Shown here piece after piece: positions 6,275 to 37,724 of a stretch of 64,000 nt of DNA. This stretch comes from Ecdyonurus torrentis. Its lineage: Eukaryota > Arthropoda > Insecta > Ephemeroptera > Heptageniidae. The notes under the pieces were generated by a model, which ran no database searches, was not told where the DNA came from, and saw nothing but the letters and a program-made list of their open reading frames with translations. The number at the start of each line of letters is the position of its first letter. The stretch's first letter is position 1. The position numbers and the translations under genes are program-made. Where the stretch lies: the NCBI GenBank assembly GCA_949318235.1, contig OX439131.1:45764859-45828858 (forward strand), given 5' to 3'.

Positions 6275-6411
6275 TTAATTTTGTGGCTTTAAGAAGCTTC
6301 CAGCAAATAGATTAATGCGAGGAGTTCTATGACTTAAAAAGAATAAGAAAGGATGCTGTACGTTGACAATTGGTGGTGGAGCTAACATCATTCTTGTTGC
6401 CATGATCATAC
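6275..6411 (-). CDS. Serpin variable exon 8.24, Arg-Met bait; most distal exon found
   Basis: Acceptor GTCGTGCTTGCAG, phase 1; 45 codons. Loop GMIMATRMMLAPPPIV places Arg at P1 and Met at P1'. s4B NVQHPFLFFLSHRTPRIN, s5B LFAGSFLKPQN, TAA. Too short for ordinary ORF detection; found by its H-P-F motif and acceptor. No consensus donor or AATAAA was seen close downstream, so the end of the transcript is unresolved. Confidence 0.9.
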
Positions 6412-6711
6412 CTGCAAGCACGACACATTATTGTAGTTTATACTTTCTAATTGTTACACTAGTAATAATAATAATAACATTGTGAGCCAGCAGCAGCATG
6501 CAAGTAAATAAACACATTTAACAGAAAACATAGAAAAATAAACTTTAATATTTGTTATATTGAACTTTAAGAAAATTGAGTGCAATTAAATAGTCTTATC
6601 AAAATAAATTAACTGATTTCTGAATGTAAATATTGAATCTTATATTGTTAAGAATTTAAAAGTAAAAATATAGAGAAAACTATAGTTGTATGAAGTAAAG
6701 TTCTATAGTTT

Positions 6712-6748
<37 letters not shown>

Positions 6749-6837
6749 AGCACAGATAATTATAAAAGATTTGATATAAAAACACATAGATATATTAGTA
6801 AAAATTGGGGAATGGGAGATAGTATGAGCTTACACTT

Positions 6838-7185
6838 ACAGGGATGCAAGGCAGAGAAAATATTCTAACCCAGGCCAAAATTAAATTTATAAAAAGCGTA
6901 TGTAAGTGGCTCATATTGCTTTGTAGAAAGTGAGCTCTAGCCTGGGTAAGAATATTTTCTCTACCTTGTGTCCCTGTATGTCCAATATAAGAAGAGAGGT
7001 TATTACAACCGGATGCACCCCTTTTTCTGACACAATTTTCCCCAAATAAACACCAAAATTTTACAGGTGATCAATGTAATATTGAAGTTAATACGTGTTA
7101 AATTTTATTTCTATAACTTAATTACAATCCGAGAAAAGGGGATGCATCCGGTTGTACTAACCTCTCTTCTTATATTGGGTGGTGT
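6838..7185. repeat. Two adjacent palindromes just upstream of exon 8.24
   Basis: One has arms at about 6838-6880 and 6937-6975 (CAGGGATGCAAGGCAGAGAA versus TTCTCTACCTTGTGTCCCTG). The second has arms at about 6989-7030 and 7139-7183 (ATAAGAAGAGAGGTTATTAC versus GTACTAACCTCTCTTCTTAT). Confidence 0.65.
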
Positions 7186-7803
7186 ATGTGTTTTTCTATC
7201 AAATTTTTTATAATTATCAACCATCGCATAGACGTTTTTTTCCTAATATTTATTATTTTACTAACACAAAGATAAGAAAGAACACATCAGATTTACAAAT
7301 ACTGTTTGAGGTTGACTTTAAGTGATTTCCATAACACCTTGCTTCCATTTCAATGTACTACTCAAGCACACTACATTGAAACTGATGCAGATGTTAGCAA
7401 AATTGATTAAAGTCAACTTCAAAGCAGTTGCTTCTTTATTAGTCAAAAGACCTTTTTGTAAAATACAAAAAAAAAAAAAAAAAATAATAATAATAATAAT
7501 AAAAAAACATTGTGTATTTTAATTAGTAGTGTACCTAAAGAAACTACATAATTATGGCCAGTCTGCAAGGACTGACAAAGGCACACACACATGTTTCTTT
7601 TATATGTGTAGCCTTTTGTGCCAAAAGCTTTTAAATGTGTTCTTTATTATCCCCATGCTAGCCAGATTTTGCAGCAAAATTTAAGACCACCTCTTCACAA
7701 CAGCTAGTTTTCTCTCTCCTTTACTTTTCATTAATTACAAATACACATTCTATAATACATTATTATAATCTATTTTATAAATATAAAAATAATTCTGTAA
7801 ATT

Positions 7804-7916
7804 TTAACATACTTCACAATTAGTACAAAAGAAGGGTTCACAGTTTACCCCCCAAAATAGCAATGGTTTCACCCTAATCAAAAACATATAGAAAACACAC
7901 AGAACTACAAATACAG
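7804..7916 (-). pseudogene. Possible relic of a serpin variable exon
   Basis: An array-like acceptor (TTACTTTATAG) opens an in-phase frame AVFVVLCVFYMFLIRVK then PLLFWGVNCEP and a stop at 7804. The start resembles a loop with Cys at residue 7 and the end resembles s5B, but the middle (rest of loop and H-P-F) is missing. It may be an exon with an internal deletion, or chance. Confidence 0.25.
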
Positions 7917-8329
7917 CTATAAAGTAAAGAATATAAAGAGCAGATGCAAATAAAGTAAAAGACCTCACAGGAACAAATAGCGTAAGTGTCACATGACCTT
8001 CAAATACAAAGTTTGCAATCATAGAAATAATAATAATACGATATAACTCTCTCTATTCTCTCACACCAAACTCAATTTATATTTTACAGTTTATTTGAAT
8101 AACAATACAACTTTTTTTTTTTTTACATTGGATGTTACCCCAGCATATCAAAATTTTACACTTGCATATTAACTTCCTCTAGTCCATACTGTATAATATT
8201 TTTATTTTAGGTTGAAAATGAGATTGCACAGTGATTTGACTAAAACTGAAAGGGCACAAATAACGTGTATACAAGTAAAGTAAAATTAATTACAAATGTT
8301 TAAACCGTTTCGGTATGAATATTTAATCA

Positions 8330-10486: not shown

Positions 10487-10650
10487 CTAAAGTTCATCCT
10501 TAGGTTTGAGGGCAGCTGAGGGTAAAGATAATTTTCCAGAGAACAAGGTGAAATCCCGGAGTGCAACCAAATGGAAGAGGAAAGGATGATCAGCAATAAT
10601 TATAATTCTCTCCTGGATCATGGCAGAGCGTTTCATTCTGACCACAGCCC
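10487..10650 (-). CDS. Serpin variable exon 8.23: furin-type bait and KDEL ER-retention signal
   Basis: Acceptor TTTTGTGTAG, phase 1; 54 codons. Loop GAVVRMKRSAMIQERI contains R-M-K-R|S, the R-x-K/R-R consensus cut by furin-like proprotein convertases, with Arg at P1 if the loop is one residue longer than in the sister exons. s4B IIADHPFLFHLVALRDF, s5B TLFSGKLSLPSAAL, and the chain ends KPKDEL then TAG. With the constant signal peptide this predicts an ER-retained convertase inhibitor, the counterpart of the Spn4A form of Drosophila Spn42Da (RRKR bait, HDEL end) and of an amphioxus KDEL serpin. A donor GTGAGA follows the stop by nine bases. Confidence 0.94.
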
Positions 10651-12768
10651 CTACACAAAACACATACATACATTATAGAACAAACACCATATTTTAGCAC
10701 AGAATACTTCCATTGCAACTTTCACAGAAAACAAATTCCATCACACAAAGATAATACCCAAGCACATCACAAAAACCAAACACATTGCCGTATATAGAAA
10801 AGACATACCAACAAAAAGAGGATAAACATTTGTAACTCAATATACCATCTATATTTAATTAAGTTTTGATTCAATTGCATATTTTAAGTCAGATTTGCAT
10901 ATTATTGAATTTGGCTTGATCGTTTTATTAAAAATACCACAAAATGTAAAATGAAAAATTTTTATAATCAGGTAGAAGGAAACTTAAATAAATTTTGGCC
11001 GTTATTTATGTTTTTAGTTAAATTTTATAAAAGTTAAAAATTAAATACACAAACTTAAAATGAATGCAATAATTAAGATATCTTATGGGGAAAAAATTGA
11101 ATGGAAAAACACAGACAGATTGGAAAAAAATTGGGGAATGGGAGACAATGGTACACCTTATGAAATAAAATAAAAGGAATAAAATAATTATTTTCTCTCT
11201 CATAAAAGGCTCAATGATCACATTTCCCCAATTTTTATAACCTATGTGCTTTTTTCATGCCATCAAATATTTTCTATGCAAGTCAATAAAGAAAAGTTTT
11301 AAAGTGAATTTATTCTTTTGTAAACATGAAAAATTTTATGTCCATGGAGTTAAAGGAGAATTTAATCAAAAGGTAGAAAAAACATAAAAGTCCTGTAATA
11401 AAACAAAAGTTAAAGTTTGCAAGAATTCATACAAAAACCTGTATATTAATTATACATTATTTGACAGTCAAAGGACAGCCAGTTATAATATTTTCTTGAA
11501 AGTTACGTCCCTGCAATAAAGAACACAACAGTTGGCACCACAGAATACAGAATAACAACAATTCTCTTAGGAAATAAAATAAAAACATTCAAAGAACATC
11601 AACCCTCTGTGTCAACCTACAACATAGAAGGAAGAAAATAACCAGAAAATTAAATATGAGGTCATTGATTTGTGTAAGTTTTTAAGATATGAGAATAATT
11701 TAAAAATACACATTCGTTAGAAATACATCCCTGTAAACACAACTTTCTAGGGGGGGGGGGGGGGGGGGGATGTTTGAAATTGCAATACCTGTGCTTTTAT
11801 GTGTCACTCTATAGCAAGAGCTTGCCCTACACTTGCAAGGTACAAGAAAATGAGTATTATGTCATGTACGCTGGTCACGACTGGGGAAACTTTAACACAA
11901 TCAGTCAGATTTATTCAGGACCATAGTGTACAGTTTCAGACAAATGAAAGGTATAACCATTTAAACATGTTTTTATTGTGTGCGCCTCATATTGTAAGTG
12001 GAAATGATATTGTTACGTCATATTCATGTGTTTTGATGCGTGCTCAGATGTAGTGTTATCTATTAGGTGAGCTGCTTTTTAGCCAGCAAGCCAAACACGC
12101 CTCGTGATGCACGGGTATATAATATAATAAATATAGTTTCCACATAAAGTTTGAGACACACAAAAAAGCAGCAAGTTTAAATGGTTACCTTTCATTTGTC
12201 TGAAACTGTACATGCCCAGTATGTGGGACTTGAAAAAAAAAAAAAAAAAAAAGTTATAAAAATATAACTGATAAGTACTTGACCCTGAGTGACATAAAAA
12301 CATAAAGGTCAGGTATGTTGGGGAAAAAAATTGCACTGAACATGTACACATGATTGTGATAATATATTTTACCATTTAAATTCAGCACCTAATTCTCTTA
12401 AAAGAATAACATTGCCATGGACCACTTGCAATGAACAAACTATTTAAAATATTCTTAATTCATTTGAGTCTACTAGTTCCAAAAACAGCTTCTTTCGTTT
12501 TCAACAAAGGTGATATCTTACCTGATAGTGATAATAAACTCACCTTTATTGAAAATGGAAGAAGCATGTTTTGGAACTAGTAGATTCATTTCTTATGGAA
12601 AAATCAATACAGATAGTTGAAGATTAAATTAAATACTCATTGTTATCTTAAAACACTACAATTAAAAAAATATATATATACTGGGGCCCATTTGTGTGCA
12701 AGATTTGAGATGGTCAAATATATAATCACAATTGTGTGTACATGACAAGTACACTGATGTTTGCTGGG

Positions 12769-13931: not shown

Positions 13932-14065
13932 CTACTGAGCAGGCGTGATAAATCTGCCCCAGAAAAGCACCATTCTGTGGGTCTCCGCAGGATGCACAAC
14001 CAAGGCAAACATGAAGGGATGTTCTAGGACTAACTCTTCACATACTGAGCGGCAAAATAACGCAG
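13932..14065 (-). CDS. Serpin variable exon 8.22
   Basis: Acceptor TGTTTATTTCTAG. Loop AALFCRSVCEELV: by count P1 is Ser with Arg at P2, but a loop one residue shorter would give an Arg-Ser bond, which seems more likely. s4B LEHPFMFALVVHPAETHR, s5B MVLFWGRFITPAQ, TAG, with GTGATT as a weak donor twelve bases on (exon end 13919). 44 codons. Confidence 0.88.
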
Positions 14066-14928: not shown

Positions 14929-17161
14929 TTTACCATTATATTTATTATGACCAAGTCCTATGATGCTGGTATTAGATAACTGCCTCCAAATGCAATCATT
15001 TTAGTTTGACGATGTATCAACCTGAATAAAAATTGACGTTCTATAACTATGCTTTGAGTATACAATATACCATCCACACATATGCCTAGAAACAAATAAA
15101 ATACTATAAGAACTTTATTTATAACATATTATATTGTTGAGTTGAAGATTTTATTTATGGACAAGCAAATTTATTATGCATGTAAGCTCGAAAGGGACCA
15201 AACTTAATACTTAATAATATGACTATACATTTGTTTTATTTGCCTCTGACCAAATGAGTTGTAGTCACCTAATCCAAGCACTCTATACATCAGACACTTG
15301 CAGCATCACACAAAACAATTAACACAAGAAATGAATAATAACAATGAATTGAAGCTTATATTGGTGGAATGCATTAGCTAATCAAAGACGAAGCAGGAAA
15401 AGTAATGAGACCTCTTAAAGCCACATGAATAAACATGAAATGCGATCTTCAAAAGTGATGACAATTTTTACCAGAATAATAACGTAGCCCCATGAGAGAG
15501 CGTGAACATACTGTAAAGTATGTAATTTGAGTGAATATTCATGTTTATGACGTCAGAAACATGCAAAAATTAGTATGAAAAAAAAAAAAAAATGTTGTGA
15601 GGGTTGCATAAATTGAAATTTTCTGATCACTGCTTCGGAGCTACAGTTGGGTTTTGAGAGTTATTTATGTAACTCCCATCAAGTGTTTTGTGATATAAAA
15701 GCTTAAGTTTTTGTCTGGTCTATTCCTTTAAGTTGTTATTCTTGGCATTAAGTAAAGATGTCTTGTTAGTAAGAGATATTTTCAGTGTTTAAAACTAATA
15801 AACAAACTCTTCATCTTTGGTCACACTCATTCTAGTGTAGTTGTATGGAAAATTGAGACAGAAAAAAAAATTGTATTTGTTGTAAGGATTGGGAAATATT
15901 GGCTTTAGAACAAGACCTTGAAAAGTAAAACTTATTGACATGTTTTGCTTAAACCATTTGTTAGGAGAAAAAGTCAAGACTTTACTTGTCAATATTTAAT
16001 GTACAATAAGTCATAAAAGTAGCAATTAAAGAGGAAGTTCAGGGGTTACAACATGGCTTCTTCAATGTTAGATAATAAGAAGAACTGTTCATAAACTTAC
16101 ATATGAGAACCTAAAGCCCTTCCGTAGTCCCATGATAACCCCTTAAACTTACGCTCATCCTGCGAGATATGCAACCAGCTACAACCTTTTCTATAGTAAA
16201 GCCGTAACTATGACGTACAAGATACGGGAAAAGTTGCATATCTCACAGGATGATCACGAGTTTGCAGGGCTTTGGGTCGTCATATATGAGTTTATGAACA
16301 GTTTTTCTCATTATCTATCATTGAAGAAGCCATGTTGTAACCCCTGAACTTTCTCTTGAAGTGTTATTCAGTCTACGGAAGTTATGTTATTTTCTGTATA
16401 TTTTAGAAAGAAATAATAAAATTCTTGTAGTTAAATAGTATGTATAGCAAAAGGAAACATTTCAACAACTAACAAACATTATAGAAAAATAAATCAAATT
16501 GGCAGAAAAGAAAAGAAAAGAAAAAAATACCATCAATTGTAACAATAATAAAAAACGAGGTTAAAAGCTGGAATGAAATAATAATAGTAACTGTGGTAGC
16601 TTGAGTCTGATATTAGTCGTTGATCAGAGCTCTCATGCAGTGTGGAAGTACGCACTATAGCATTGCCTTCACAAAACAGATGGCTGAGAGAAACCATGCA
16701 CATAATACGCCTAATAATAGCACAATTTATTCTCAAGGCACTACAAAAGCAGTAGCAGGAATACAAAAGTTCACTTCAACTGAGAGAAAAGGTAGTGACA
16801 ACGCAATGTTTAAAGTTGCTTATTCAACTGGATAAATCCACGTTTCTGATTGGCTAATATCTGAAAATATCTGATAATCAGTTGATATAACAATAGAAAA
16901 TATCAGCTGAACATCAGTTGTATAAGCAACTTAAGTTAAATCATGATAACCAAAAAGTCGCTACGATGCGAGTACAAAGGTGAATATTATATTTAAAAAA
17001 TGATAACAACGGGTGAATTAACTATCCAGGTAGTGCTCCAGAAGTGATTATTATTATATTTACCTGGATTGATTAACAAAGGTATTGATTAACTCTATAT
17101 ATGTGTAGAAAACATATCAGGTACTATAAGCTACTAGAAAACACACTCACAAACATTTAAG
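14066..17161. other. Interval between exons 8.21 and 8.22: repeats only
   Basis: Contains a fold-back at 14221-14345, a (TA)n at 14889-14920, MITE-A copy 1 and a 330-bp palindrome at 16030-16362 (GAAGTTCAGGGGTTACAACA versus TGTTGTAACCCCTGAACTTT). Small frames here do not look like proteins. Confidence 0.4.
15415..15731 (+). mobile_element. MITE-A copy 1
   Basis: Family of about 340 bp, bounded by TTAA and inverted ends of the type TTAAAGNNATAGACCA. Shared inner landmarks: GTAGCCCCACGAGAGAGCGT, TTCATGTTTATGACGTCAGA, and GGTTGCATAAATTGAA. This copy lies between exons 8.21 and 8.22; its left end is slightly diverged. Confidence 0.7.
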
Positions 17162-17301
17162 TTACTCCTGAGGTGGGGTCTGAAGTCTGCCACCGAAAAG
17201 CACGACCTGATTTGTTCTCTGAGTCAAGTAAAACAAGAATGGACGGTTGACTTCAACGATTTGAGGACGTAATGGCATCATTCTGCACATCATGACGACG
17301 G
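17162..17301 (-). CDS. Serpin variable exon 8.21, Arg-Met bait
   Basis: Acceptor ACTATGTTATAG. Loop AVVMMCRMMPLRPQIV with Arg at P1 and Met at P1'. s4B EVNRPFLFYLTQRTNQ, s5B VVLFGGRLQTPPQE, TAA, donor GTGAGT eleven bases later (exon end 17151). The loop resembles 8.24 (R-M-M after P2). Confidence 0.93.
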
Positions 17302-18308
17302 CTATAACATAGTGTAATATGCTTCCTTATTAATCACAACTTTCATTATAAGTAGAGTGATATATAAGTGTGCACAGATAATATAACAGGAAAATAAAAA
17401 CCTACAAAATAAGTCAATAAGAATCAGGATAATAATGTATTTAATATTTTGTCATTTTGTTGTTTGTGTGTTTAAGCACATAGAATAGAGAGTAGAACAA
17501 CCTTATATAGTTTTGAAACAATACATCTAAGCACATGCTATTAGCAATTAATGTAACTTGAGGGTGTTGTTTGAACTGGGATTACTGGTAACAGAATTGT
17601 GTTAGCCAAGCACAGGAGGTGAGGGAAAATTACCCCTCTTTAATCGTATAAATTCCAGAAATTTCACATTATTTTTATTTTATTTTTTTGGCATTATATA
17701 AGATGTACACACAGGTACTAGACAAGTGTGTTAAGTCTTCCTCAATTTGTATTCTACTACATACTGTGAAAACATATTTGAATCTGCCTGGCTGAGGCTG
17801 TTTCATAAGGTTTACAAAATGATACTCTTACCTTATTGCATGTATGAAGAAATTTGTACTCTGTTAACTTAAAAAGTGTCCATCATAACACAATCAAAAT
17901 TTCAGGATCAGTTAAAATTGATTCAAACTATATGCATGCCAAATTTTATTGTGCTCAAAAGATTGAGATTTTTTTTTCTTTTTTAATCCAACATGGGATA
18001 AGGTAGGAGTTTTTGAATATCCTATTCTACCCCATGCTATTTTTAATCAGCTTCTAATCCGTTTAAAATTTAGTATGCAATGAAATAAAGACATTTTCAA
18101 CTTTACATTGAAAATTTGATTGTGATATAAGAAACGCACTATTTAAGATATTAACTATTGATATAAGCCTTGAATAAGGGATACTAGACAAACTTGAACT
18201 TGTTTTAAAGCTATTAAATATTTATCCCCGCAGGCAACTTTCATTCTCACCAACAACTGAGCTCACATTAATCGAAAGTTATGAGAAGACTCACACGTAT
18301 ATAAGACT

Positions 18309-18451
18309 CTAGAATATGTGTCGTGGGTACACAAATCTGCCATGGAAGAGAACTGATGATACTACTCCTTGGTGAGTAAGATAAAATAAAAAAGGATGAT
18401 TTATCTCCACAACTTGAGGTATCATCAGACACTTGATAATCAACACAGCCC
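18309..18451 (-). CDS. Serpin variable exon 8.20, Lys-Cys bait
   Basis: Acceptor AATTTTAG, phase 1. Loop GAVLIIKCLMIPQVV gives Lys at P1 and Cys at P1', predicting trypsin- or plasmin-like targets. s4B EINHPFLFYLTHQGVVSS, s5B VLFHGRFVYPRHIF, TAG, donor GTGAGT about fourteen bases later (exon end 18295). 47 codons including the stop. Confidence 0.92.
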
Positions 18452-19042: not shown

Positions 19043-19188
19043 TTACAAGGAGGCAAGTCTGCCTGAGAACAAAGTCAAGTTTGTAGTCCTACGACGTCCA
19101 AGTTTGAGGACAAAAAGAAAAGCATGGTCGACGATTACATCGAATGGCGGCGGTCTACTTCCCAGACTGTCTGTACACATCACTAATC
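19043..19188 (-). CDS. Serpin variable exon 8.19, Asp-Ser bait
   Basis: Acceptor TTTGTGTCCTTGCAG, phase 1. Loop GLVMCTDSLGSRPPPF places Asp at P1 and Ser at P1'. Acidic P1 residues are rare in serpins and known mainly from inhibitors of Asp-cutting proteases (caspases, granzyme B). s4B DVIVDHAFLFVLKLGRRR, s5B TNLTLFSGRLASL, TAA, with GTAATA as a possible donor seven bases later. No defects. Confidence 0.9.
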
Positions 19189-19380: not shown

Positions 19381-19943
19381 AAAACTATACTAAACATAAG
19401 GTTTAACATATCATAAAAAGCTGATATTGTTTTCAAATCCCGAGTATTTGTGCAGATTTTTCTTTTTTATCCTTTTACAAAAGTTTTATTAGTATATATT
19501 AGATTCCTAGCATGTAAAATTATATCAAATCAAAAATATCACCTAATAATTGAACCATATAGAATGGGGAAAGAGCTTTTAACTAAAGAAAAAAAGAGCA
19601 TTAAACCTAATATTTAGTTGTTTCAATAGGACTTGAGGAGAATAAAATAAAACAAAGACCGTTGCTGGCATTTAAAACCAAAATAGAGACATGTAGCTAT
19701 ATAGTAACCAGCTGCCAAGTAAACCAAGTGACCACTCCCAATGGGAAATACACATTTTGTTCAGAGTAAATTATTCATTTACATATAACTGAAACTGGGA
19801 GGCACTTCTCGACAGGTAAGTATAGCTCCTAAACCAATATTACTAAAATAAACAAAAATCAAATACAGATACACTGAAGTATATAAAAAGTACATAGCTG
19901 CTGCTGGCATATGATGAAGCTCTTTACAAATCTAACTTACATG

Positions 19944-20086
19944 TTAAGGTAATGTTAACAGTCGGCCAATAAACATAACAAAGTTGTCTGTCTTTGGAAT
20001 ACTGGACACCAAGTAGAAGACAAATGGATGATCTATTTCGATGACTGGGGTAGGTGGTGGGATGGACTGGAAAAAGCACCTTATAC
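19944..20086 (-). CDS. Serpin variable exon 8.18, Gln-Ser bait
   Basis: Acceptor TTTTTTTCCCTCTAG. Loop GIRCFFQSIPPPTPV gives Gln at P1 (Phe at P2 and P3) and Ser at P1'. s4B IEIDHPFVFYLVSSIPKT, s5B NFVMFIGRLLTLP, TAA, CAT, donor GTAAGT (exon end 19941). Outside the loop it is almost the same as 8.17, while the loop differs at nearly every position, as expected if selection acts on the bait. Confidence 0.92.
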
Positions 20087-20248
20087 CTAGAGGGAAAAAA
20101 ACTCTGCACTATACATATGATAAGTAGCTCCTAAACCAATAATACTAAAATAAAAAATAATAATAAAGGTAAAGCGCAAACTGAAGTATGCAAAGCACAG
20201 TGCTGCTGCTGGCACACAGTTCAACACGTCACAAACAAGACTTACATG

Positions 20249-23652: not shown

Positions 23653-23746
23653 GGTAAACAGCACACCAATACAAACAACCTAAGAAACACAATAAGAGCT
23701 TTACTGATGCTGCTCACTATAAAACCACGTAACAAAGACTTACATT

Positions 23747-23892: not shown

Positions 23893-24046
23893 CTAGGAAA
23901 TGGTAAAATTATCTACAAACATTTCAATTACAACAATTTTTTAGAAAAAATGGAAATTAGACATAATTTATGTAAAGCAAAGCAAGGAGTTTAGCTGCTG
24001 GTACACAAAAACCACACAACACATACAAGACTTACATTTGCTAACC

Positions 24047-24201
24047 TTAAGCTGGGGTTATTACGTGCCCTGTAAATAAAGTAAAAGTGCTGGTCCCCTT
24101 TAACGAAGGTAGGGTACGATGTACTAAGTAGAATGAAAAGGGATGATTCACGTTGATTAGTTGAGGCATCATGGCCATGGAGTAGCCCATTATCATCACG
24201 A
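24047..24201 (-). CDS. Serpin variable exon 8.13, Tyr-Ser bait
   Basis: Acceptor GTGTTTCCCAG, phase 1. Loop VVMIMGYSMAMMPQLI places Tyr at P1 and Ser at P1', pointing to chymotrypsin-like proteases; the P4-P2 context I-M-G equals that of 8.12 with only P1 changed. s4B NVNHPFSFYLVHRTLPSL, s5B TFTLFTGHVITPA, TAA, donor GTAAGT eleven bases on (exon end 24036). First of the 8.13-8.18 tandem subgroup. Confidence 0.92.
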
Positions 24202-24327
24202 CTGGGAAACACACATATTGAGCCTCTTTATAATAATTATGTATCTGTACTATCTATATATTATTATCTTCACATTATTAATTTTAGGAAATAAACAGGG
24301 CAGTTTAGGATCAATATTAAAGAAAAA

Positions 24328-24680
24328 TATAGAAATACCAGCAAGGCCTCACTTACCACAGTAGAAGTTATATGGAGATCTAGCGTGTCACAGAGTTATA
24401 ATGTTGATACAACTGAGAGCATTTGTCATTGCAATGACATTTTCAATCAAAGAAGATATTACTTGAGCACATCACAGAGTAGTGTGTAGCCCAGAATACA
24501 AGTACAGGACTACACGCTACTCTGTGATGTGCTAAAGTAATTTTTTTCATTGATTGATAAAGTCATTATGATGATGAAAGCTCTCAGTTATATAAACATT
24601 ATAACTATAACTCTGTGCCACCTCGACCTCTCCAAAGAACTTCTACTGTGGTAAGGTCCTTGCTGGTATTTCTATCCTTT
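24328..24680. repeat. Palindromic element, ACCAGCAAGG family
   Basis: Arms ATACCAGCAAGG…TATGGAGA (24336-24377) and TCTCCAAAGAAC…CTTGCTGGTAT (24632-24670), with a second inner inverted repeat around ACTCTGTGATGTGCT. Lies between exons 8.12 and 8.13. Confidence 0.7.
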
Positions 24681-25599
24681 ACTTTAATATAAATTTCCAA
24701 ATATTTCATTAATACAGGCTTACTAACATTAGAGTCAGATGCCACTCAGGTAAAACATGCAAACTTTACCCAGTTTATAAAATACACAAATATAAAATAA
24801 TTCAGGTGATCAAAGGTGGGGGTTCTCTATCACCTAATAGCTTCTATTTGCATATTTCAAGCATAGTACTTGAGTGACAAGTTTACCTGATTGATAACCA
24901 AGAAATTCTTAAGGCGGGAAATCAACTACCGCGGGATTTGACTAAAAAATTGTAACGATAGAAAAATCTGAAATTTTGCCCAGTGATACATTAGGATAAA
25001 GTATCTTCAAAAATGTAAAAAAATTGAGAGGTCACCATGCTAGATTTTAAATTATGATTTTTTAAAGTCTTAGTCCCATAAGAGCCCATGTTAATTTCAA
25101 TAATTATTGTCTCTCTTATCTGATGGTCACGGGTTCTGAAAATTTTATTATAGGTAGCTGTTACTATTAACTTTTAAATGGCATCATAAAGTTTCAAAGT
25201 TTTCTTTTTAGATTTTGAGATACAAGACATCTGTATACAACCCTTAACTTGGCCCACCTTTAAGAGATCTGATGGCGTGGTTACGAGAGTGAAAATGACT
25301 TTGTTTACATTTGCCAGTATTTGTAACAAAAACAAATAATATAAATCCTCAATAAAGCAGCACTGCACATTCAAAAGTTTGTTATTTTATTGAACCATGT
25401 TGGGCCAATGTCCTGCCTAAAAAGTCCACTCAAATACATGAACCCGACATAGAACATACAAAAAACAATTAAAAGGAACCAGTTAACGTGATGTACCATG
25501 CAGTGAAGAAGCAATAATAATGGGAAAGTTAGCAAGAAATGCAAAAGCTAGCACTATAGCAATGCAACATGAAAGCACACACGCTGAGTTGCAACTTAC

Positions 25600-25718
25600 A
25601 TTAAAAGTGACAACATGTCCCACAAACATGGGAGATGTCCCTTCAAACATCAACATGAAGACAAAGGGATGGTCCACTTTCACTATACAGCATCCTGATC
25701 TACCCATTATAACTGCTG
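25600..25718 (-). CDS. Serpin variable exon 8.12, antithrombin-like Arg-Ser bait, donor before stop
   Basis: Loop AAVIMGRSGCCIV has Arg at P1 and Ser at P1' preceded by I-M-G; antithrombin carries V-I-A-G-R|S at the same place, so trypsin/thrombin-like targets are likely. s4B KVDHPFVFMLMFEGTS, s5B PMFVGHVVTFN, then a strong GTAAGT donor while the frame is still open, unlike the other exons. If spliced, the stop codon must come from the next exon; if not, the frame continues into a hydrophobic segment and stops at 25483. The acceptor TTATAGCAGCAG offers tandem NAG choices differing by one residue. Confidence 0.88.
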
Positions 25719-26226: not shown

Positions 26227-26358
26227 TGTAATTTATGAAGTATATGATGAGTATGGTTATAACAAGTTAAGTATGCCAGTAAAGAAAGGTGTAGTGGATC
26301 ACAGAGAAATGCAGTCAGGTTTGCCCTAACAAGGACGTAAAGCATCATATCTAATCAT

Positions 26359-26696
26359 TTAAAGCCACATAAAACAACATGTGCTTTTTAATGAATAAAC
26401 ACAAAATGGGATATTCAAAATTGTTGACAATTTTTACCAGAATGTTAATGTAGCCCCACGAGAGAGCGTGAAAAAACTGTGAAGTATGCAATTTACATGA
26501 AAATTCATGTTTATGACATCAGAAACATGCAAAAATGAGTATGAAAATGTTGTGCGGGTTGCATAAATTGGATTTTCTGAACACTGCTACGGGGCTTCAG
26601 TTGGGTTTTGAGATAAACTATAAAGTTATTTATGTAAATCCCATCAAGTGTTTTGTGACATAAATGCTTATGTTTTTCTCTGGTCTATTCCTTTAA
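26359..26696 (+). mobile_element. MITE-A copy 3
   Basis: Near full length, TTAA at both ends; adjoins a MITE-B copy (25915-26226) in the interval between exons 8.11 and 8.12. Confidence 0.75.
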
Positions 26697-27000: not shown

Positions 27001-27665
27001 TGTTTAATGTATTTAATTTAATACTCTTATTTTGTAAATTTATGTTATGTTGTACATCCATGAGTGTTTATTGAATAAAATAATAATTAAAAATATTGCT
27101 CCATGTTAACCAGACTTAACGGTATAAATTACTTAATAGTAAATAAAAAGCTGGATAAAGTTTGGACAACACATATAAGGAAAAAGGGAAAAAATAAAAT
27201 AAACAAGCGCCTTTGCACAGAATAAATATTAATGAAGATTTGACTCTGCGATAATAGATAATAAAGCAAATAGATTATGTACACAGGAAATATGTTAAAG
27301 TAAACTCTCAATTTTTGTGAAATCACAAGGGACCCAGAAAATGGCCTTTTCACAAAATGGAGAGCTTTAACATTGGCATGCTTATATTGAAGTCTGCTGC
27401 GGAACTAGCTGAACATTTCGAGAAAGTCAATTGAAAAAGTCACAGAATTGAACTTTACAAAATCAAGAGTTTATTGCATCTATTTAGCATGCTATTCCCA
27501 TTCCCCCAATAATTGTTCATTCAGTACCTCTTTTACCATATGACTCTCCCCTTACAGTTTACACACACTCAAATAAGAAGAACAAATACATTACAACAGT
27601 AAACAAGCCATAATAAATAAATTGCTGCTGGCTGATTAAATATTAAATACTTACAGAGTAAATAC

Positions 27666-27814
27666 TCAGACAGAGGGATTGTAACAGCCACCCTCAAACA
27701 AAACCATTGTTTTGGCATTGGAGTAATGTTGATGAATCAAGAAGAATACAAAGGGATGTTGTACCTCGATGACAGGGTTTTTGGTCACGAAACAACAGTC
27801 GCTCATTACTATTG
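27666..27814 (-). CDS. Serpin variable exon 8.11, Cys-P1
   Basis: Acceptor TATGCTCTATAG, phase 1. Loop AIVMSDCCFVTKNPVI, with Cys at P1 and P1'. s4B EVQHPFVFFLIHQHYSNA, s5B KTMVLFEGGCYNPSV, TGA, then twelve bases later a strong donor GTAAGT. Asp at P2 is unusual. A CAGCAGC motif (minus strand) lies about 25 bases downstream of the donor, as in the following exons. Confidence 0.92.
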
Positions 27815-28324: not shown

Positions 28325-28849
28325 TCCTAGGGCACTATTAGCTTTGCTACTAAACAAACAAATGCACCCCCAGAAGACCAAATAAAAGATGAAGAAGTTC
28401 TCTACATCTATCTTTGCTAAATGCCCGAATACAACATAATCACACTTCCTATAGCCAAACATAATACATATGTGAACACAATCAACAATAGAACTTCAAC
28501 GTCATTGTATTTTTTATATATACATATAATACTACATTTTTTTTGTTTTAATAGTTGCATAACATAAAGCAAGTCAAGTTTTGTGTCAAGTTTGTCTCCT
28601 TTTCCTACAATCATAACACAATAAAATCACAGCAGCTTTTTCAATTTATTATTATTATTATTATTATTATTTGCTCTAAAGTTTGATTTTAATAAATTAT
28701 TTTAAAATAAACACAAGCCAGTATCGATATAGTATTAAGAAGCATTTGAAGCAAAATAAACACGACAAACTCAAGAGTTAATTAAGAGAAAGGAAGAGGC
28801 AAAGACTTTGTGCTGCCAGCTCAGTGTGGTATTCTAGCACACACCTCAC

Positions 28850-28989
28850 TCAGGTGCTAGGAGCCACCAGCTTGCCACTAAACAAACATGTACGTCGTCT
28901 GTACAGCAAGTGAAACATGAAGGGATGATCCACTCGTACCACTGGAGGGGTGGGAGGTACCATCGTCAGCATCATGTTCATCACTATTG
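28850..28989 (-). CDS. Serpin variable exon 8.10, Met-P1
   Basis: Acceptor TATTTTCTTAG, phase 1. Loop AIVMNMMLTMVPPTPPVV gives Met at P1 and Leu at P1', suggesting elastase- or chymotrypsin-like targets (alpha-1-antitrypsin also has Met P1). s4B VRVDHPFMFHLLYRRR, s5B TCLFSGKLVAPST, TGA immediately followed by donor GTGAGG. Forty-six codons; no defects seen. Confidence 0.92.
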
Positions 28990-29287: not shown

Positions 29288-29526
29288 CTATATAAAATTT
29301 TATTCTTACTCCGAGGCTAAAAATAATTTTTTATACAGCAGAGAATGTACAAATCTAAATGAAATAAAAGCAAGCATGTAGGAAATTTGCTCACAAACAT
29401 CTCATATAATAATCTTGCATAAAGAAAGGACATCTAGCATTTGACGGCAAAAACATGATGCAATGTTAGGTTAAGTTTGTGCTGCTGACTTGACAAACGA
29501 CAAGCTAACACACACACAAACACACC

Positions 29527-29651
29527 TTACGCTAAACTGGGATGGACCAGTATCCCCGAGAAAAACACCAGCTGAGAACTGTGCACCAAATAAAACAAGA
29601 ACTGGTGATCAATGCGGATGTAGGGATCCTCACAACGTAGATATGAGATTG
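29527..29651 (-). CDS. Serpin variable exon 8.8; acceptor tract supplied by a MITE end
   Basis: Loop AISYLRCEDPYIR puts Cys at P1 (Arg at P2); s4B IDHQFLFYLVHSSQ, s5B LVFFSGILVHPSLA, TAA, then AG|GTGTGT as possible donor. At 41 codons it is the shortest complete exon. The pyrimidine-rich stretch before its CAG acceptor (TTTTTCTCTGGTCTATTCCTTTAA on the minus strand) is the terminal inverted repeat of a MITE-A copy (29655-29997), inserted one codon's distance upstream, so the splice site now depends on transposon DNA. Confidence 0.85.
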
Positions 29652-29654
29652 CTG

Positions 29655-29997
29655 TTAAAGGAATAGACCAGAGAAAAACATAAGCATTTACATTACAAAA
29701 CACTTGATGGGATTTATATAAATAATATTAGTTTGTCTCAAAACCCAACAGTAGCCCCGTAGCAGTGATCAGAAAATTCAATTTATGCAACCCGCAAAAA
29801 CATTTTCATACTAATTTTTGCATGTTTCTGACATCATAAACATGAATTTTTACGCAGATTGCATACTTTACATTATTTCACGCTCTCTCGTGGGGCTGCA
29901 TTAACATTCTGGTAAAAATTGTCATCAGTTTTTAAGATCCCATTTCGTGTTTATTAATTAAAAAGAACGTGCTGTTTTATGTGGTCTATGGCTTTAA
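29655..29997 (-). mobile_element. MITE-A copy 4, abutting exon 8.8
   Basis: Inverted copy. Its end TTCTCTGGTCTATTCCTTTAA on the minus strand runs directly into the CAG acceptor of exon 8.8, leaving only three bases between the TTAA and the exon. Confidence 0.8.
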
Positions 29998-30907
29998 ATG
30001 AAATAAAAGCAAATACGTAAGAAGTTTGACAGGAAATATTGCACAAATAATGTTCATGCAGTATATTTTTTTTTAAATGCAAACCAGCTCATTTACAAGA
30101 CAGGAAAAACAAATTGTAAATACATTAGGAAACAATAGAGAGTGTAGGTACATCCATCTATCGTCATTGTTTTATTTCCTTGGAATTAAAGCTTCAATTA
30201 CTTTTATTATTATTGATTTTTTAAATGCACTTTTCTAAGATGACAGCGCGTTAACTCAGGGTTGTGAGAGGAGGAAATTCCACGACTAAAAGAGGAATTT
30301 TAAGCCCTTTCCAATAATATTTTCAAAATAAATTACCTAACTATACTTACGGATTAGGTCCTAAATATGACCTGACCAACATACATAATATCAATAGGTT
30401 CGAAAAATACTGTATAATCAAATTAGATGATGCCTTTGAGGTTTGGTCTTTATTATTATTATTATTTTAATTAACTCTACATATATGATGCAACACTGTA
30501 ATAAAATAATACCTATACATCAAGAAAACACTAGTGACATAGCAAAGTTAAGTTAATTCACAAAGAAACAGCTGCTATGTTGAGAATAAGTCTTATGAAA
30601 AATGTACACATGCTTTGTGTTTAATAAATGAATAACAAAAATTATGATAAATTATAGCAGCTATTCAGTTAGTGCGCCAAATGTTCACCACAAGTTGGTA
30701 CCTGCATCGTTCTGCATAGATACTAGCTGGATATTGAGTTCTCTTGGCGTGAAACTTTGTTCACCCATGCTCTCTACAGTGAGTTAATTTTATTGGTGAG
30801 GGAAGGGGGGAAAGATGAAAAAAAAAAAAAAAAGTGGCATTTTGATGAGAAAACTACTTTGATTTCGTAAATTTGACTTGCCAAATTACAAGCTAACACA
30901 GATATAC
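29998..30907. other. No exon seen between MITE-A copy 4 and decayed exon 8.7
   Basis: AT-rich, with short A and T runs; no H-P-F or F-x-G motif in phase with an acceptor was found on the minus strand. Confidence 0.4.
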
Positions 30908-31019: not shown

Positions 31020-31732
31020 CTCCGTTTTAAATATTATTGCTTTAAAAAAAAAAGGCTTAAATTAATTCCTCACAAAACATTAACTTCTAACACCAAACAC
31101 ACATAGCAAGAAAGCAGTGCCACCAACTCACATTCATATATAAAAAGCAGGAATCATAAAACTGTAGTTATTAAACGCACAAATAAATCATAATATTAGA
31201 ACAATATGAATTTTCCTTAGGAGTGATCCAATATCTTGCCACACTTAGATAATATTTTACCATTAATGTTAGTATTGTTTTAAAGCTTTTAAAAGCTAGC
31301 TCTGTTAAACTTTTAGGGACAAAAATTTGACTAACGCTCTCTTAATTAAGTTAGTTTTTGTTATGTTATTGAAAGAAGTGGATCAGAAGGTTAAAAACAT
31401 CTATGTATAATAGAATTGAAAATAAAATAATGAATAATGAATATAATGATACATAACATAAGCCACATAAAAAAAATGAGAGTAATTCTGATTTACCCCT
31501 GAAAAAACGATTGTGATAATTATGATAGTTGTTTTCGTTAGCTTTCAATGCTTTTTAACAATAATAGTAGCAATAAAAAAAATAAAAAATAAAACACAAA
31601 AAAAAACACGCACTTTATAAAATACCCTACCCCAATCACAATTACAATATAATTTTTGTTAGATTCCTGAACTATAGAAACTGCCGACTCAATACATTGA
31701 AAATGAAAAGACAATTAACCACTCACGTAGTC

Positions 31733-31878
31733 TTAATAAGTTGGTTGAGAGAAGTGTCCATAGAAGAGTGCAATTGTGCCTGAACTTGAGCGCTGAATTA
31801 AGTGAAACACAAACCCATGGTTCACTCTAACTACAGGTATCGGAGTTGGGATGAAGGCACACAATGCTATACCCATTG
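31733..31878 (-). CDS. Serpin variable exon 8.6, Cys-P1
   Basis: Acceptor TATGTTGATGCAG, phase 1; 48 codons including the stop. Loop AMGIALCAFIPTPIPVV places Cys at P1 and Ala at P1'. s4B VRVNHGFVFHLIQRSSSG, s5B TIALFYGHFSQPTY then TAA. A good donor (GTGAGT) follows the stop by nine bases, so this behaves as an internal, mutually exclusive exon that would splice on to a downstream 3'UTR exon. Confidence 0.9.
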
Positions 31879-33564: not shown

Positions 33565-33842
33565 TTAAAAATAATAATCAGAATCCACAGCTTCAGTATC
33601 TTCAGCTTCCGAATTTTCCCAGAAATAGTCAACATCACTGTCGTCATGATCACCCCAGCTAAAAGTAGTGGGTTGCTCTCTGGGTATGGGGACCATTGCA
33701 GGGGTGAGCTTCTTGAGCTTGCCTTCAAACACAACAAAGACTCCCTTCTCTCTCTTGATTACCATTAACATGAACGGGTGGTCAACATCAACTTTAGGGG
33801 GACGGACAAGAGGAGGGCGGGCACATCCAACAAAATGATGTA
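33565..33842 (-). CDS. Serpin variable exon 8.5, Cys-P1 loop with acidic tail
   Basis: Acceptor TTTTTATTTCAG, phase 1. Loop VHHFVGCARPPLVRPPK places Cys at P1 and Ala at P1'. s4B reads VDVDHPFMLMVIKREKGV, s5B FVVFEGKLKKLTPAMV. The tail is strongly acidic and aromatic (DDSDVDYFWENSEAEDTE … VDSDYYF), with several Tyr flanked by Asp. Intact counterpart of 8.3; 8.4 and 8.5 were duplicated together as a block. No consensus donor was seen after the TAA. Confidence 0.87.
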
Positions 33843-33972
33843 CTGAAATAAAAACATTAACACATGATGCCTTCCATAAAATCAAGGAAGCCTTGTAGAT
33901 CACAGATGAAAAATATGACAGCAAATTAAATATTGAAATTAAAATGAAAATTATTTGTTAACAGTACAATAT

Positions 33973-33978
33973 TTTATT
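33973..33978 (-). terminator. Polyadenylation signal overlapping the stop of exon 8.4
   Basis: AATAAA begins at the last base of the TAA stop codon of exon 8.4. The same hexamer sits at the equivalent place in duplicate exon 8.2 (35858-35863). Together with the absence of a consensus donor just downstream this suggests that the proximal exons end transcripts themselves. No downstream GU-rich element was verified. Confidence 0.45.
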
Positions 33979-34318
33979 TAATCTGAGTCAGTAACAATGT
34001 TATAGAGAGCTTGCTCTTCATCAGACTCGTCCCCCTCTTCCTCTGACGACTCTGACCCCTCGAGATCCAGTCTAGGAAACTTGGGTAAGCACGGATTGTC
34101 TTCGTAATTAGGCTCTAGCTCTCGTCCGCCATCTGAACGCACTCGACCAGAGAACAACACAACAACGTTTCTTACTGAAGTCCTTGCTCGTTGCGATACT
34201 CGTTTCATGGCCAGCACATGGGCGTGTCCTCGCACTACACGGAATGAGAATGGACGTTCTACTATCAACTTCTTAACTCGAGGAGGTGGCGAGCAATCTT
34301 GACTTGTTAATATACCAT
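33978..34318 (-). CDS. Serpin variable exon 8.4, with acidic tail
   Basis: Acceptor CCGTTGTAATACAG, phase 1. Loop DGILTSQDCSPPPRVKK gives Gln at P1 and Asp at P1' by count. s4B is LIVERPFSFRVVRGHAHV and s5B VVVLFSGRVRSDGGRE. A roughly 45-residue acidic tail follows (ESSEEEGDESDEEQALYN, ending IVTDSD). The stop codon overlaps AATAAA (33973-33978), so this may be a true 3'-terminal exon with its own polyadenylation. It is the intact partner of damaged exon 8.2. Confidence 0.87.
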
Positions 34319-34830
34319 CTGTATTACAACGGAAATACAAAACTATAATGTGACATGTCTCAAGTCTCCACAGACTACAAAGTGTAAATACAAAGTTACT
34401 CAAAGGATCTCATTGAAAGAGACAGAATGTACAATGCAGAGCATCAAGACTGCTCAGAGGACAACCCGCAGTGCTAGTCTCAAATCTCCAGACTGGATCT
34501 ACAAGTGTGAAAACAAGTGAGATGTGACGTCATTCTCTGCATCTGCCATTTTGTGAATGGAAAATAAATTAGAAATCAATGATTCTGGCCAAATCAACGT
34601 TGATATTTAGGGATTTTAGAATATTCGACAAGTTTTTTGACCAACGTGTTTAATTCTTTTATCCCATGTCAACCAACTGCTGGTATTGACAAGTTGAGAG
34701 AAAATAATGCTCACTTGTCCTGACCTGTTTTTACAAGCCACGAAACAGTATTGTTGAGAATTTTCCATCCTGAAGATTATTTGGGAGATTCAACAACTTC
34801 TAATAACCACAGGGAAAAAAAGTGACCAGA

Positions 34831-34862
<32 letters not shown>

Positions 34863-35415
34863 TTGAACACAATAAAAGATGAATATATAATTTTTTTTAA
34901 CATGCCCAACCAAATATGTAACTATAAATATATTTTTACTAATAATGTTCGTAAACCTTTTTTTTGTGTGTCCCAAACCACAAAAAAATGACGATCATCT
35001 AATGCTTTTTATATGGAATTGCGCATTTTTTTTGTAACAAGGGGACAGGGTTTACAAACATCATTACTGTGACAAAATTTGAAAAAAAGAAAGAAAAAAC
35101 TTGAATTAAAGTTATTTTTTAATTATTAAGTTTCCTTTCAAGATAATAAATTATTTTCATAAAAACGTATAATATTAGTAGTAAAAGCAGACCCTTCCCC
35201 ACAGCTATTAAGATTAGTGTATTTAAATTCTCTCAAGGAACTTAAACATACACAAAACTTAAATCAAAATTTAATACTTTTGTAAAACAAAAATAAATAC
35301 AATGCAATAATTTAAGATTCAAAAGCTTTACTTTATTTATCATCATCAGACTTGAAAACAAAGTATTTTAATTGAATGCAATAATGGAGACAATGATGAG
35401 ATCATGTTAAAACAA

Positions 35416-35741
35416 TTATAGGAACAACATACTAACAAAACTATACATGATTAAGATTGCAAGGATCTGAAACTTTGTCAACTTCTGAGAATTCAATGTC
35501 AAAGTCACAATCAAATGCTGACTCATCACTGCTCTGTCATTATCACCACAGCCATGAGTCAAGGGGTGCAGGACTCTGACTGGGGGGACCATTGCAGGGG
35601 TGAGCTTCTTGAGCTTGCCTTCAAACACAACAAAGACCGCCTTCTTTCTCTTGATAAAAAAAAACATAAACGGGTGGTCGACTTCAATTTTAGGGAGAGG
35701 GTAAGGAGTAGAGCGACCACATCCAATACAAGAACCCCACA
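35416..35741 (-). CDS. Serpin variable exon 8.3, tail frameshifted duplicate of 8.5
   Basis: Acceptor TTTTTATTTCTAG, phase 1. Loop VWGSCIGCGRSTPYPLPK, then IEVDHPFMFFFIKRKKAV and FVVFEGKLKKLTPAMV. The serpin core is intact and aligns almost residue by residue with 8.5. P1 is unclear: residue 7 is Gly and residue 8 Cys, so the loop may be one residue longer with Cys at P1. After LTPAMV the frame differs from 8.5; an acidic tail (DESAFDCDFDIEFSEVDK) is readable in another frame, so an indel has replaced it with an unrelated 50-residue end. Confidence 0.7.
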
Positions 35742-35858
35742 CTAGAAATAAAAATATTAAAAAATGATGCCTTGCATGGAATTAAGAAAGTCTTGTAGAT
35801 CACAGATGAAAAATGTGACAGCAAGTTAAATATTAATTATTTGTAAACCAGTAATATT

Positions 35859-36151
35859 TTATTTAATCTGAGTCAGTGTCAATGTTATAGGGAGCTTGAT
35901 TATCATCAGACTCGACCCCCTCTTCCTCTGACCCCTCGAGATCCAGTGTAGGAAACTTGGGCAAGACTGGATAGGCTCCAGCTCTTGTCTGCCGTCTGAA
36001 CATACTCTGCCAGAGAACAACACGACAACTTCTTTCACTGAAGTCCTTGCACATTGCGATACTTGTGTCATGGCCGGCACATGGGCATGACCTTGCACTA
36101 CATGTAACGAGAATGGACGATCTACTTTCAACTTCTTAATTGGCGTGCAAA
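35859..36151 (-). pseudogene. Serpin variable exon 8.2, damaged duplicate of 8.4
   Basis: Clearly homologous to exon 8.4 (KKLKVDRPFSLHVVQGHAHV; VVVLFSGRV), but where 8.4 has its CAG acceptor this copy reads CAC, leaving only a weak AG 20 bases further in and a much shortened loop. After s5B a net loss of 13 bases relative to 8.4 shifts the frame, so the acidic tail (still visible in the other frame, ending DNQAPYNIDTDSD) becomes a basic/neutral one that stops at 35859. An AATAAA overlaps the old stop (35858-35863). Probably non-functional. Confidence 0.75.
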
Positions 36152-36591
36152 CTCCACCAACGTGTATTAGAACAGGAATACAAAACTATATCGTGGCATG
36201 TCTCAAGTCTCCACAGACTACAAAGTGTAAATACAAAGTAACTCTAAGGATCTCATTGAAATGGACAGAATACAAAACGAGGACAGTTGCATCAAGACTG
36301 CTTATGGGACAACCCGCAGACTGGATCTTCAAGTGTCAGAGCAAGATGGGAACGAGCTAGAGCAGATCAAGTTTATAAACGACAATGATGTGATGACATA
36401 GAAAAAAAATCATTGCAGCACGTACAAGATACTGTCACAATTAATATACTTGCACACAGTCACTATCAACTCAATCTTCAACTACCACTTAATTAAATAT
36501 TGCCTGAACAAATTAATTATTATTTATAAGATAAGCTGGAAATTGATTTACAGCTTGATTTTTTTCTTGTGAATTTGTTTACACACCCTTA

Positions 36592-36962
36592 TCAGTCGCT
36601 CTCTGATGATGGTGATGTTGAGGAGTAATAGTCAGCAGAATCGTTGTCCATGTCATAGTCAGGGTCACTGCTGGAATCACTGCTGTCTTCTAACAGAGCC
36701 ACAGCCTGAGTCTGTTTTGTCCGTGGTCGCAGAGTATAACCATGACTCATAGCTGCACTACACTCAGGTATTCTCACTACATGTGGGGACAACACCTCTG
36801 GCTTTGTCACGGTGGTATGCAGTCTTCCTCTGAACATGACCGTCATTTGTTTACGTGAAGGTTTCTTCACATGTTCTTGCATCACGTAGAACACAAAGCC
36901 ACGGTCTACATGTAGCACACAAGCTGGGGCGCGTCCTGGCCCTTGACGCCTGGCATGGTGGC
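36592..36962 (-). CDS. Serpin variable exon 8.1, with long acidic tail
   Basis: Acceptor TTAATTTAG, phase 1. The loop begins GHHARRQGPGRAPACV, placing Gln at P1 by count with Arg at P2/P3; a shifted bond after one of the two Arg is equally possible. s4B reads LHVDRGFVFYVMQEHVKK and s5B MTVMFRGRL. Unusually the protein runs on about 75 residues past s5B and ends in an Asp/Ser-rich tail with Tyr in acidic context (DPDYDMDNDSADYYSS), a plausible tyrosine-sulfation site in a secreted protein. No strong donor follows the TGA within the first bases, so it may be a terminal exon. Confidence 0.85.
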
Positions 36963-37585
36963 CTAAATTAACATACAACAGTCTGCTCGTCTACTCAAAA
37001 ACCAAGTGTTACAGACAGACGAGTTCACATTTACGTTGCTGCTTTGTGAAGATATTGCTGTGTGAGTTATTACAGAAATATATACATTTAACATAATATG
37101 GTAATAGATATAATTATATTACAATGGTTATATGTTATATTACAATGGGGTTTGCCACTGGAGTGTGGCAGCCAATCACAGGTGGCACAGGAAAAGGTAA
37201 GGATCGCTATAGGACCATGGTTTTTATCATTATTAAATGAGGGATTATGAAGACACTTTCTTACAAGTTGTAAGACTGAAATATTTTTGACGAAAATTTT
37301 AATTACCGACAATGTCCACTGCAGAGGGTCTATGTACTAGTAAAAAATTATTAGCAGTTTTCACCTAATTGCTGACAACAATACATATGTATAAAATGAT
37401 GGAGCTTGGGTAGCAAAAGAGTGGTGGCAGCACAATAAAAAAGCAAATATGCAGCAAGCTAAAGTGAAGAGCAAGCACAAAGAAGAGAGCATGATAGTTT
37501 TATTGTGAGTGAGTTATTTTGCTTATCCATATGAGAAACTGTTTCAGTGTCAAGTTGCAATGAGAGCAAGTGAGTGAGACCCTAC
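36963..37585. other. Intron between hinge exon 7 and exon 8.1
   Basis: Only 623 bases separate the hub donor from the first alternative acceptor. AT-rich; a short near-palindromic ATATTACAATGG repeat at about 37110-37150 is the only structure seen. This is where signals deciding between proximal and distal exons would be expected. Confidence 0.4.
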
Positions 37586-37724
37586 CTGTTGCAGACGCAG
37601 CCTCAGTGCCTTCCTCGCTGACCTCAATGAACGTCTTCTGGAGCACCTGAGATACTTGGAGGGTATCAGACGAAGACATACCGCTGAAGTCGGCCATTGT
37701 CGTGAACATTTTCCCCATGCCCAT
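37586..37724 (-). CDS. Serpin constant exon 7: s5A and reactive-loop hinge; splice hub
   Basis: Starts [20 protein letters not shown] after a TTGTGTTTCAG acceptor and ends with [12 protein letters not shown] plus one base at donor [16 protein letters not shown] is the P17-P8 hinge typical of inhibitory serpins (small residues at P12-P9 allow loop insertion). The exon ends in phase 1 at P8/P7, so residue 1 of every variable exon is P7 and residue 7 is normally P1. This counting reproduces known bonds in human SERPINB1 (Cys P1) and puts Arg or Tyr before Ser in exons 8.12 and 8.13. This is the common donor for all alternative exons. Confidence 0.96.

Follow-up and report, generated by a model that had tools for sequence, protein, structure and literature searches.

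A mayfly serpin gene with 23 alternative reactive-loop exons and a candidate RNA docking site for the choice among them

A serpin gene was analyzed in a stretch of 64,000 nucleotides (nt) from the mayfly Ecdyonurus torrentis (assembly GCA_949318235.1, contig OX439131.1, positions 45,764,859 to 45,828,858), which is called the window below and to which positions refer. The gene lies on the minus strand of the window. One serpin body is followed by 23 exons with alternative reactive loops, and it is quite probable that this is a single insect gene of the Spn42Da/serpin-1 kind, the full mechanism included. The central proposal, to which we assign a probability of roughly 0.6, is that long-range RNA pairings in competition with each other would determine which protease the gene targets. 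Up to 13 selectors of upstream loop exons would contend for a single docking site before the last loop exon, which would be both a loop and the common 3' end. The novelty lies in this candidate choice mechanism, not in the loop array itself. The scaffold, the frames, the splice signals and the complementarity with its statistics were read from the DNA sequence. Exons are named by the coordinate of their 5' end, e.g., exon 6411 is 6275–6411.

The serpin scaffold extends from 47990 to 37586 and consists of six exons, i.e., exon 2 (47896–47990, ATG at 47961, frame open upstream), exon 3 (47467–47646), exon 4 (46106–46313), exon 5 (45833–46047), exon 6 (42811–42996) and exon 7 (37586–37724). Joined from the ATG, they encode 331 residues plus one base and end in phase 1 directly after the hinge, as a first-pass annotation of this DNA had described for exon 7. 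The same annotation had placed the donor at 37586. This position is indeed the exon end, its final base, and the GT of the donor is at 37585–37584. The scaffold alone scored 342 bits against the Pfam profile PF00079, and together with loop exon 6411 it reached 379 bits and covered profile positions 2–370 of 370. A full-length serpin domain with an inhibitory hinge is thus present, and the protein belongs to the serpin superfamily.

Among proteins, the scaffold was closest to those of the mayfly Ephemera danica, with an identity of 56% across 98% of the query, and then to proteins of cockroach, termite and stick insect, with about 44%. The nearest solved structure by sequence was that of Drosophila Spn4 isoform B (4p0f, E 1.2e-74). 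The scaffold was also searched for in the whole assembly (503 Mb, 117 contigs, the window being on contig C10), with the best candidates alone being scored. Six of the 76 matches were inside the window, all belonging to a single exon set, and this search revealed no second serpin scaffold within the window. Among the matches listed, the relatives outside the window were at most 59% identical. No scaffold relative was confirmed among viral contigs, and a search of Rfam at gathering thresholds gave no match.

A first exon was sought in the 16 kb upstream of the scaffold. No candidate was found with the strict donor score, and three candidates with an ATG and a phase-1 donor appeared only after the score had been relaxed. 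One of them is at 48596–48620; its donor score of 2.5 is below those of the constant donors (3.3–7.3), all calculated with a matrix that is an approximate consensus. Joined to this exon, which encodes MKHSLYLI(A), the frame reads MKHSLYLI-A-FIVTIFPAIMA and then NDALK, and the exon is a good candidate for a first exon with a signal peptide.

The loop exons were detected with two profiles. The own-family profile was seeded with 16 clear loop exons and run on both strands of the window. It yielded 23 open minus-strand segments (worst E 0.0013, next match 0.51) and nothing of comparable score on the plus strand. For the outside profile, 89 loops from other animals, predominantly insects, were used and the four mayfly proteins excluded; it put the identical 23 segments on top, 21 of them at E<0.01. 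The remaining two were segment 36990–36595 (exon 36962, E 0.055) and segment 15128–14961 (exon 15085, E 0.12). The next match had E 0.31 and the best match in the reversed window E 0.13, which is about the value of exon 15085, so that the outside profile on its own gives this exon no support. The array spans 36962–6275. Each of its 23 exons is in phase and carries a loop and the strands s4B and s5B, and together they stand behind one scaffold with a donor one base past the hinge. One scaffold with alternative loop exons had been proposed in the first-pass annotation and was found. Its 24 segments became 23 open exons plus remnants at 29227–29195 and 28411–28343 and, by eye, another one at about 19790–19650. 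Its estimate of about 21 usable exons is reasonable, as exon 36151 is probably dead and exon 25718 has no stop before its donor. A search of the 20 kb that adjoin the window on its left side revealed no further loop exon.

The loop exons had been treated as one class, and in this respect the earlier view has to be revised, since they fall into groups by donor, tail and RNA pairing. The first class comprises the five 5'-most exons and is an acidic-tail family. The tails of exons 36962 (36592–36962), 34318 (33978–34318, with AATAAA at the stop) and 33842 (33565–33842) contain 9, 13 and 12 aspartate or glutamate residues, respectively, within their last 30 residues, and no lysine or arginine. Exons 36151 (35859–36151) and 35741 (35416–35741) are copies of 34318 and 33842; the duplicated block is 73% identical over 1,328 bases, and the tails differ and are frame-shifted. 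The acceptor of 36151 reads by eye CAC, versus CAG in its sister 34318, and because of this loss and the frame-shifted tail exon 36151 is probably dead. The five exons adjoin each other at 33565–36962, and three tails are intact. A region search for relatives of the acidic tail with exon 33842 alone gave 22 candidates, none of them at E<=10. None of the five exons has GTRAGT within 60 nt of its stop.

The second class consists of 13 exons, i.e., all from 31878 to 17301 with the exception of 19188. They have a donor 1–14 nt beyond the stop, which is GTRAGT in 11 cases and GTGTGT in two. GTGAGT is found at exons 31878 (31727–31878, 6 nt after the stop), 18451 (18295–18451, 14 nt) and 17301 (17151–17301, 11 nt), and GTGTGT at exons 29651 (29526–29651, 1 nt) and 28989 (28845–28989, 5 nt). 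GTAAGT follows the stop of exons 27814 (27655–27814, 11 nt), 24201 (24036–24201, 11 nt), 23892 (23744–23892, 3 nt), 23264 (23115–23264, 7 nt), 20690 (20536–20690, 3 nt), 20394 (20246–20394, 3 nt) and 20086 (19941–20086, 3 nt). Exon 25718 (25600–25718) is the exception, its GTAAGT donor having no stop before it; it acquires a stop only when it is joined to exon 6411, and it then ends ...TFNV-stop. The third class contains exons 19188 (19043–19188), 15085 (14958–15085, the weakest with the outside profile, with AATAAA soon past the stop), 14065 (13932–14065) and 10650 (10487–10650, with the furin-type loop VVRMKR-S and a C-terminal KDEL), which have neither a GTRAGT donor nor a selector. The array ends with exon 6411, which has no GTRAGT donor past its stop.

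In total, 11 of the 23 loop exons have GTRAGT at most 60 nt from the stop (for 25718 the search place was centered on the in-frame donor), versus a background frequency of 2.63% of positions. With six of the 11 exons being related copies, the nominal p of 4e-12 (binomial) is overstated; the other five (31878, 27814, 25718, 18451 and 17301) are not close copies.

From these features we infer expression, the order of splicing, the competition and the protease targets as follows. Exon 7 would be spliced to one of the 13 middle exons, which would serve as internal exons, and the post-stop donor of the chosen exon would then be spliced to exon 6411. Exon 6411 would be the loop when exon 7 is joined to it directly and an untranslated tail for the 13 middle variants, and thus both the default loop and the common 3' end. 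The selectors would compete for the single dock, and their pairing with it would draw the chosen donor to the acceptor of 6411, the rest being looped out. The five acidic-tail exons, and perhaps the four of the third class, would be independent of the pairing and are probably alternative last exons. Stop codons very near a junction are not expected to trigger decay, and the stops 1–14 nt before the donors would therefore be too near for decay to be expected.

The proposed docking site is at 6477–6506, has the core GCTGCTGCTGG at 6497–6487 and ends 76 nt before exon 6411. On its minus strand, the window has six copies of the motif CCAGCAGC, all of them 37–48 nt beyond the stop of a loop exon, and a single copy of the complement, at 6494 before exon 6411. 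The candidate selectors are mostly 28–49 nt beyond the stops. The significance of each flank was determined by comparing its longest helix with dinucleotide shuffles of the same flank. It was reached (p<=0.016) in eight of the 22 flanks, i.e., for exons 31878 (UGAGUCGGCAGU, 31680–31691, p 0.002), 29651 (AGUCAGCAGCA, 29480–29490, p 0.016), 28989 (UGAGCUGGCAGCA, 28811–28823, p 0.004), 27814 (AGCCAGCAGCA, 27623–27633, p 0.001), 23264 (GCCAGCAGCAGC, 23071–23082, p 0.001), 20690 (GCCAGCAGC, 20495–20503, p 0.012), 20394 (GCCAGCAGCAGCA, 20201–20213, p 0.002) and 20086 (a second copy of GCCAGCAGCAGC, 19897–19908, p 0.005). The selector of exon 24201 is CCAGCAGC at 23994–24001. Weak candidates are AGCAGCAU at 23707–23714 for exon 23892, UGUGAGCU at 18260–18267 for exon 18451 (energy p 0.003) and CUAGUAGC at 17130–17137 for exon 17301 (energy p 0.053). 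Nine of the 22 tested flanks have no selector, namely those of the five acidic-family exons and of 19188, 15085, 14065 and 10650.

The duplex energy was calculated for the 30-nt dock against the 70 nt following each stop in 22 flanks. It was -19 kcal/mol or lower in 13 of the 17 flanks outside the acidic family, versus none of the five within it. Sorted by donor, these low values were found in 11 of 11 flanks with GTRAGT and in two of 11 without it, tandem copies being counted separately.

The dock was also compared with other sites in a scan of 15,994 windows, each of which was scored against shuffled flanks, so that composition was controlled. It ranked first in all three flank sets: its score was 57.6 versus 43.7 for the next window when 17 flanks were used, 40.3 versus 31.7 with 14 flanks, in which each close group was represented once, and 32.8 versus 30.0 with the 12 flanks that were left after removal of the tandem group. 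An energy scan of 6,395 windows in coarser steps also put the dock first, with GC-rich windows close behind. In the per-flank shuffle tests and in the energy scan most flanks carried a trailing newline character; the scan of 15,994 windows was clean, and an initial duplex-energy calculation was unaffected. As a control, the 100 nt upstream of the 23 acceptors were used, and no docking outlier was observed (42.2, 42.1, 42.0). The selectors of exons 31878, 28989 and 29651 deviate from the perfect complement solely by changes that preserve G-U pairing, and the search favours such helices. The alignments of 23264 with its copies 20394, 20690 and 20086 run from s4B through the stop and the donor and end at the selector; the selector is therefore kept where the intron beyond is not. 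Taken together, one site is complementary to elements of many variants beyond chance, and not every variant has a selector. We thus propose that the 13 exons behave like a docking/selector system and do not claim the whole array as a member.

Several points weigh against this proposal. The motif CCAGCAGC was noticed by eye first, and the statistics were run afterwards. Just eight of the 22 flanks were significant singly, and four of these (23264, 20690, 20394 and 20086) are tandem relatives. The helix was not significant in exons 25718 (p 0.29), 23892 (0.18), 18451 (0.11) and 17301 (0.23), that of 24201 was at 0.056, and 25718 was not significant by energy either. The margin of the dock in the scan was small once the tandem group had been removed. 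The dock consists of repeated GCT, and the test in which it was itself shuffled was not decisive, since 150 shuffles gave 8.3 flanks on average and up to 14, versus the 13 observed. Weak donor-like sequences are also found outside the second class, i.e., GTGTGT 5 nt beyond the stop of 36962 and GTGATT 13 nt beyond the stop of 14065. Lastly, the proposal accounts neither for the skipping of the exons that precede the chosen one nor for the ends of 19188, 15085, 14065 and 10650.

An unlikely alternative, which nevertheless has to be taken seriously, is that the loop exons are alternative last exons with poly(A) sites of their own, and that proteins, the use of the poly(A) sites and the strength of the splice sites determine the choice. 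Tandem duplication would then have left behind the donors past the stops and the copies of CCAGCAGC, or these would be a linear element bound by proteins. The same genome offers a natural comparison, a second serpin array on contig C17 (14838240–14823977, stretches L019 and L020). None of its nine loop exons has GTRAGT within 70 nt of the stop, no docking outlier was found in it, and its exons are apparently alternative last exons. The nine exons of the window without GTRAGT donor and selector, five of the acidic family and four others, fit this explanation as well, as do the flanks common to the tandem copies. It is countered by the post-stop GTRAGT in the five exons that are not close copies, by significant pairing in four flanks beyond the tandem group, and by the location of the sole complement of CCAGCAGC before the last acceptor.

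It is also conceivable, though quite improbable, that the post-stop donors are real and join an unseen non-coding exon downstream of 6275, so that 6411 would be an ordinary loop exon and the dock coincidental or acting otherwise. The variants of Manduca serpin-1 share a 3' exon, which is a precedent for such an arrangement. The position of the dock 76 nt before 6411, the lack of a GTRAGT donor past the stop of 6411 and the clean termination of 25718 when it is joined to 6411 argue against it. Finally, the segments hardly represent terminal exons of individual serpin genes or gene copies in decay, in spite of the tandem serpin gene clusters on C17, because no second scaffold was found in the window among the best candidates scored, which speaks against a separate gene or gene copy for each loop exon (complete genes of this kind would have refuted the view of the first-pass annotation), the frames are open, the phase is common to all, and the s4B–s5B part of the close pair 20394/20086 has a nonsynonymous rate (dN) of 0.08 versus a synonymous rate (dS) of 0.22.

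With P1 counted canonically as residue 7 of the loop exon, nine kinds of P1 residue occur among the 18 exons that are not part of the acidic family, i.e., cysteine (six exons), arginine (four), lysine (two), and methionine, tyrosine, glutamine, aspartate, isoleucine and serine (one each). The roughly twenty protease targets proposed in the first-pass annotation are putative. The mean column entropy was 2.55 bits over 16 loop columns versus 1.75 bits over 28 s4B–s5B columns. In the loop of the pair 20394/20086 dN was 0.60 and dS 1.08, rates that are rough because of the high dS and because there were only 14 gapped codons. Among seven other pairs (B pairs), the loop dN/dS was above 1 in two, on few sites, and could not be computed in three.

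Further loop exons were sought in 18 serpin stretches on contigs C12 and C17. At least one was found in 14 of them and none in four. The two stretches of the C17 array contain five and four, L021 contains two, and the others have a single one each, leaving aside a match at chance level in L024. In Ephemera danica, the public gene model B566_EDAN017863 (P0011) seems to fuse two loop exons, and this suggests an unrecognised loop array there, too.

The window also contains repeats and other elements. An open reading frame of 756 codons with a reverse transcriptase domain (RVT_1, E 8.7e-36) at 20827–23097 on the minus strand, from a non-LTR-like element, is flanked by exons 23264 and 20690 within the array. 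Scattered among the loop exons are four copies of a roughly 330-base repeat, 81–90% alike and one of them inverted (15425–15732, 23305–23651, 26355–26696 and 29655–30003). Stretches that match their own reverse complement (69–89%) are found at 5427–5755, 5755–5969, 24314–24690, 16020–16366 and 11927–12212 and are perhaps hairpin-like mobile elements. Upstream of the gene there are long open reading frames on both strands (62770–63470), of which two were tested and had no Pfam match, and a perfect TGTC microsatellite with 34 copies (58651–58787).

In a study of insect serpins (PMC10513286), C-terminal variants are described for 192 of the 731 insect genes of the clade, 161 of the 192 being spliced one base past the hinge, with 21 loop variants in the wasp P. 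puparum and 20 in L. heterotoma. The statement in the first-pass annotation that about a dozen or fewer variants are known is out of date, and its view that the array is among the largest of its kind agrees with these numbers, as 23 exons are at the top of the published range that we found (annotated genomes were not surveyed). According to the same study, PpSerpin-1 of Pteromalus puparum likewise has one scaffold, a splice site one base (G) past the hinge and about 20 loop exons, and forms with a signal peptide as well as intracellular forms occur in serpins of this type (PMC10513286). The mayfly gene differs from it in its 23 exons, the acidic-tail family and the candidate RNA docking system. 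Drosophila Spn42Da (Spn4) shares the furin-type loop with an endoplasmic reticulum (ER)-retention end, but it has four loop exons (PMC4006314, PMC2770083), versus 23 here. The lancelet Spn-1 has an NMMKR-S loop and KDEL (PMC2556349), compared with RMKR-S and KDEL in exon 10650, which in contrast is one exon within the array of one gene. Exon 10650 thus fits the convertase-inhibiting loop of both, and similar ends were found in six of the 120 relatives listed. As the host is a mayfly, an old origin within the winged insects is suggested both for large loop arrays and for the furin-type loop with ER retention.

In the docking/selector literature, "srp" stands for serpent and not for a serpin. 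Docking/selector pairing in serpin splicing was not found among the papers listed, in which serpin was named only in a review on cancer, judged by its title, and in a paper on the naming of RNA variation; subscription papers were mostly outside this search, so that its absence from print is not shown. Literature combining mayfly and serpin, judged by titles, contained nothing on loop arrays. The regulation of loop choice in serpins has been called complicated, and no enriched RNA-binding motif was found in that study (PMC10513286). In Dscam, 14-3-3zeta, Mhc and MRP, as outlined in PMC6071210, many selectors face one dock, and in several of them the dock is 3' of the cluster, as it is here. In contrast to these genes, the variants of the mayfly serpin form alternative ends of the protein, the dock is followed by an exon that is one of the variants, and the candidate system was read from the sequence of one species. 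If the proposal is true, a single dock and up to 13 selectors make the choice of the loop testable via one 30-nt site, and the inhibitor repertoire of a serpin gene would join the same mechanistic class as Dscam.

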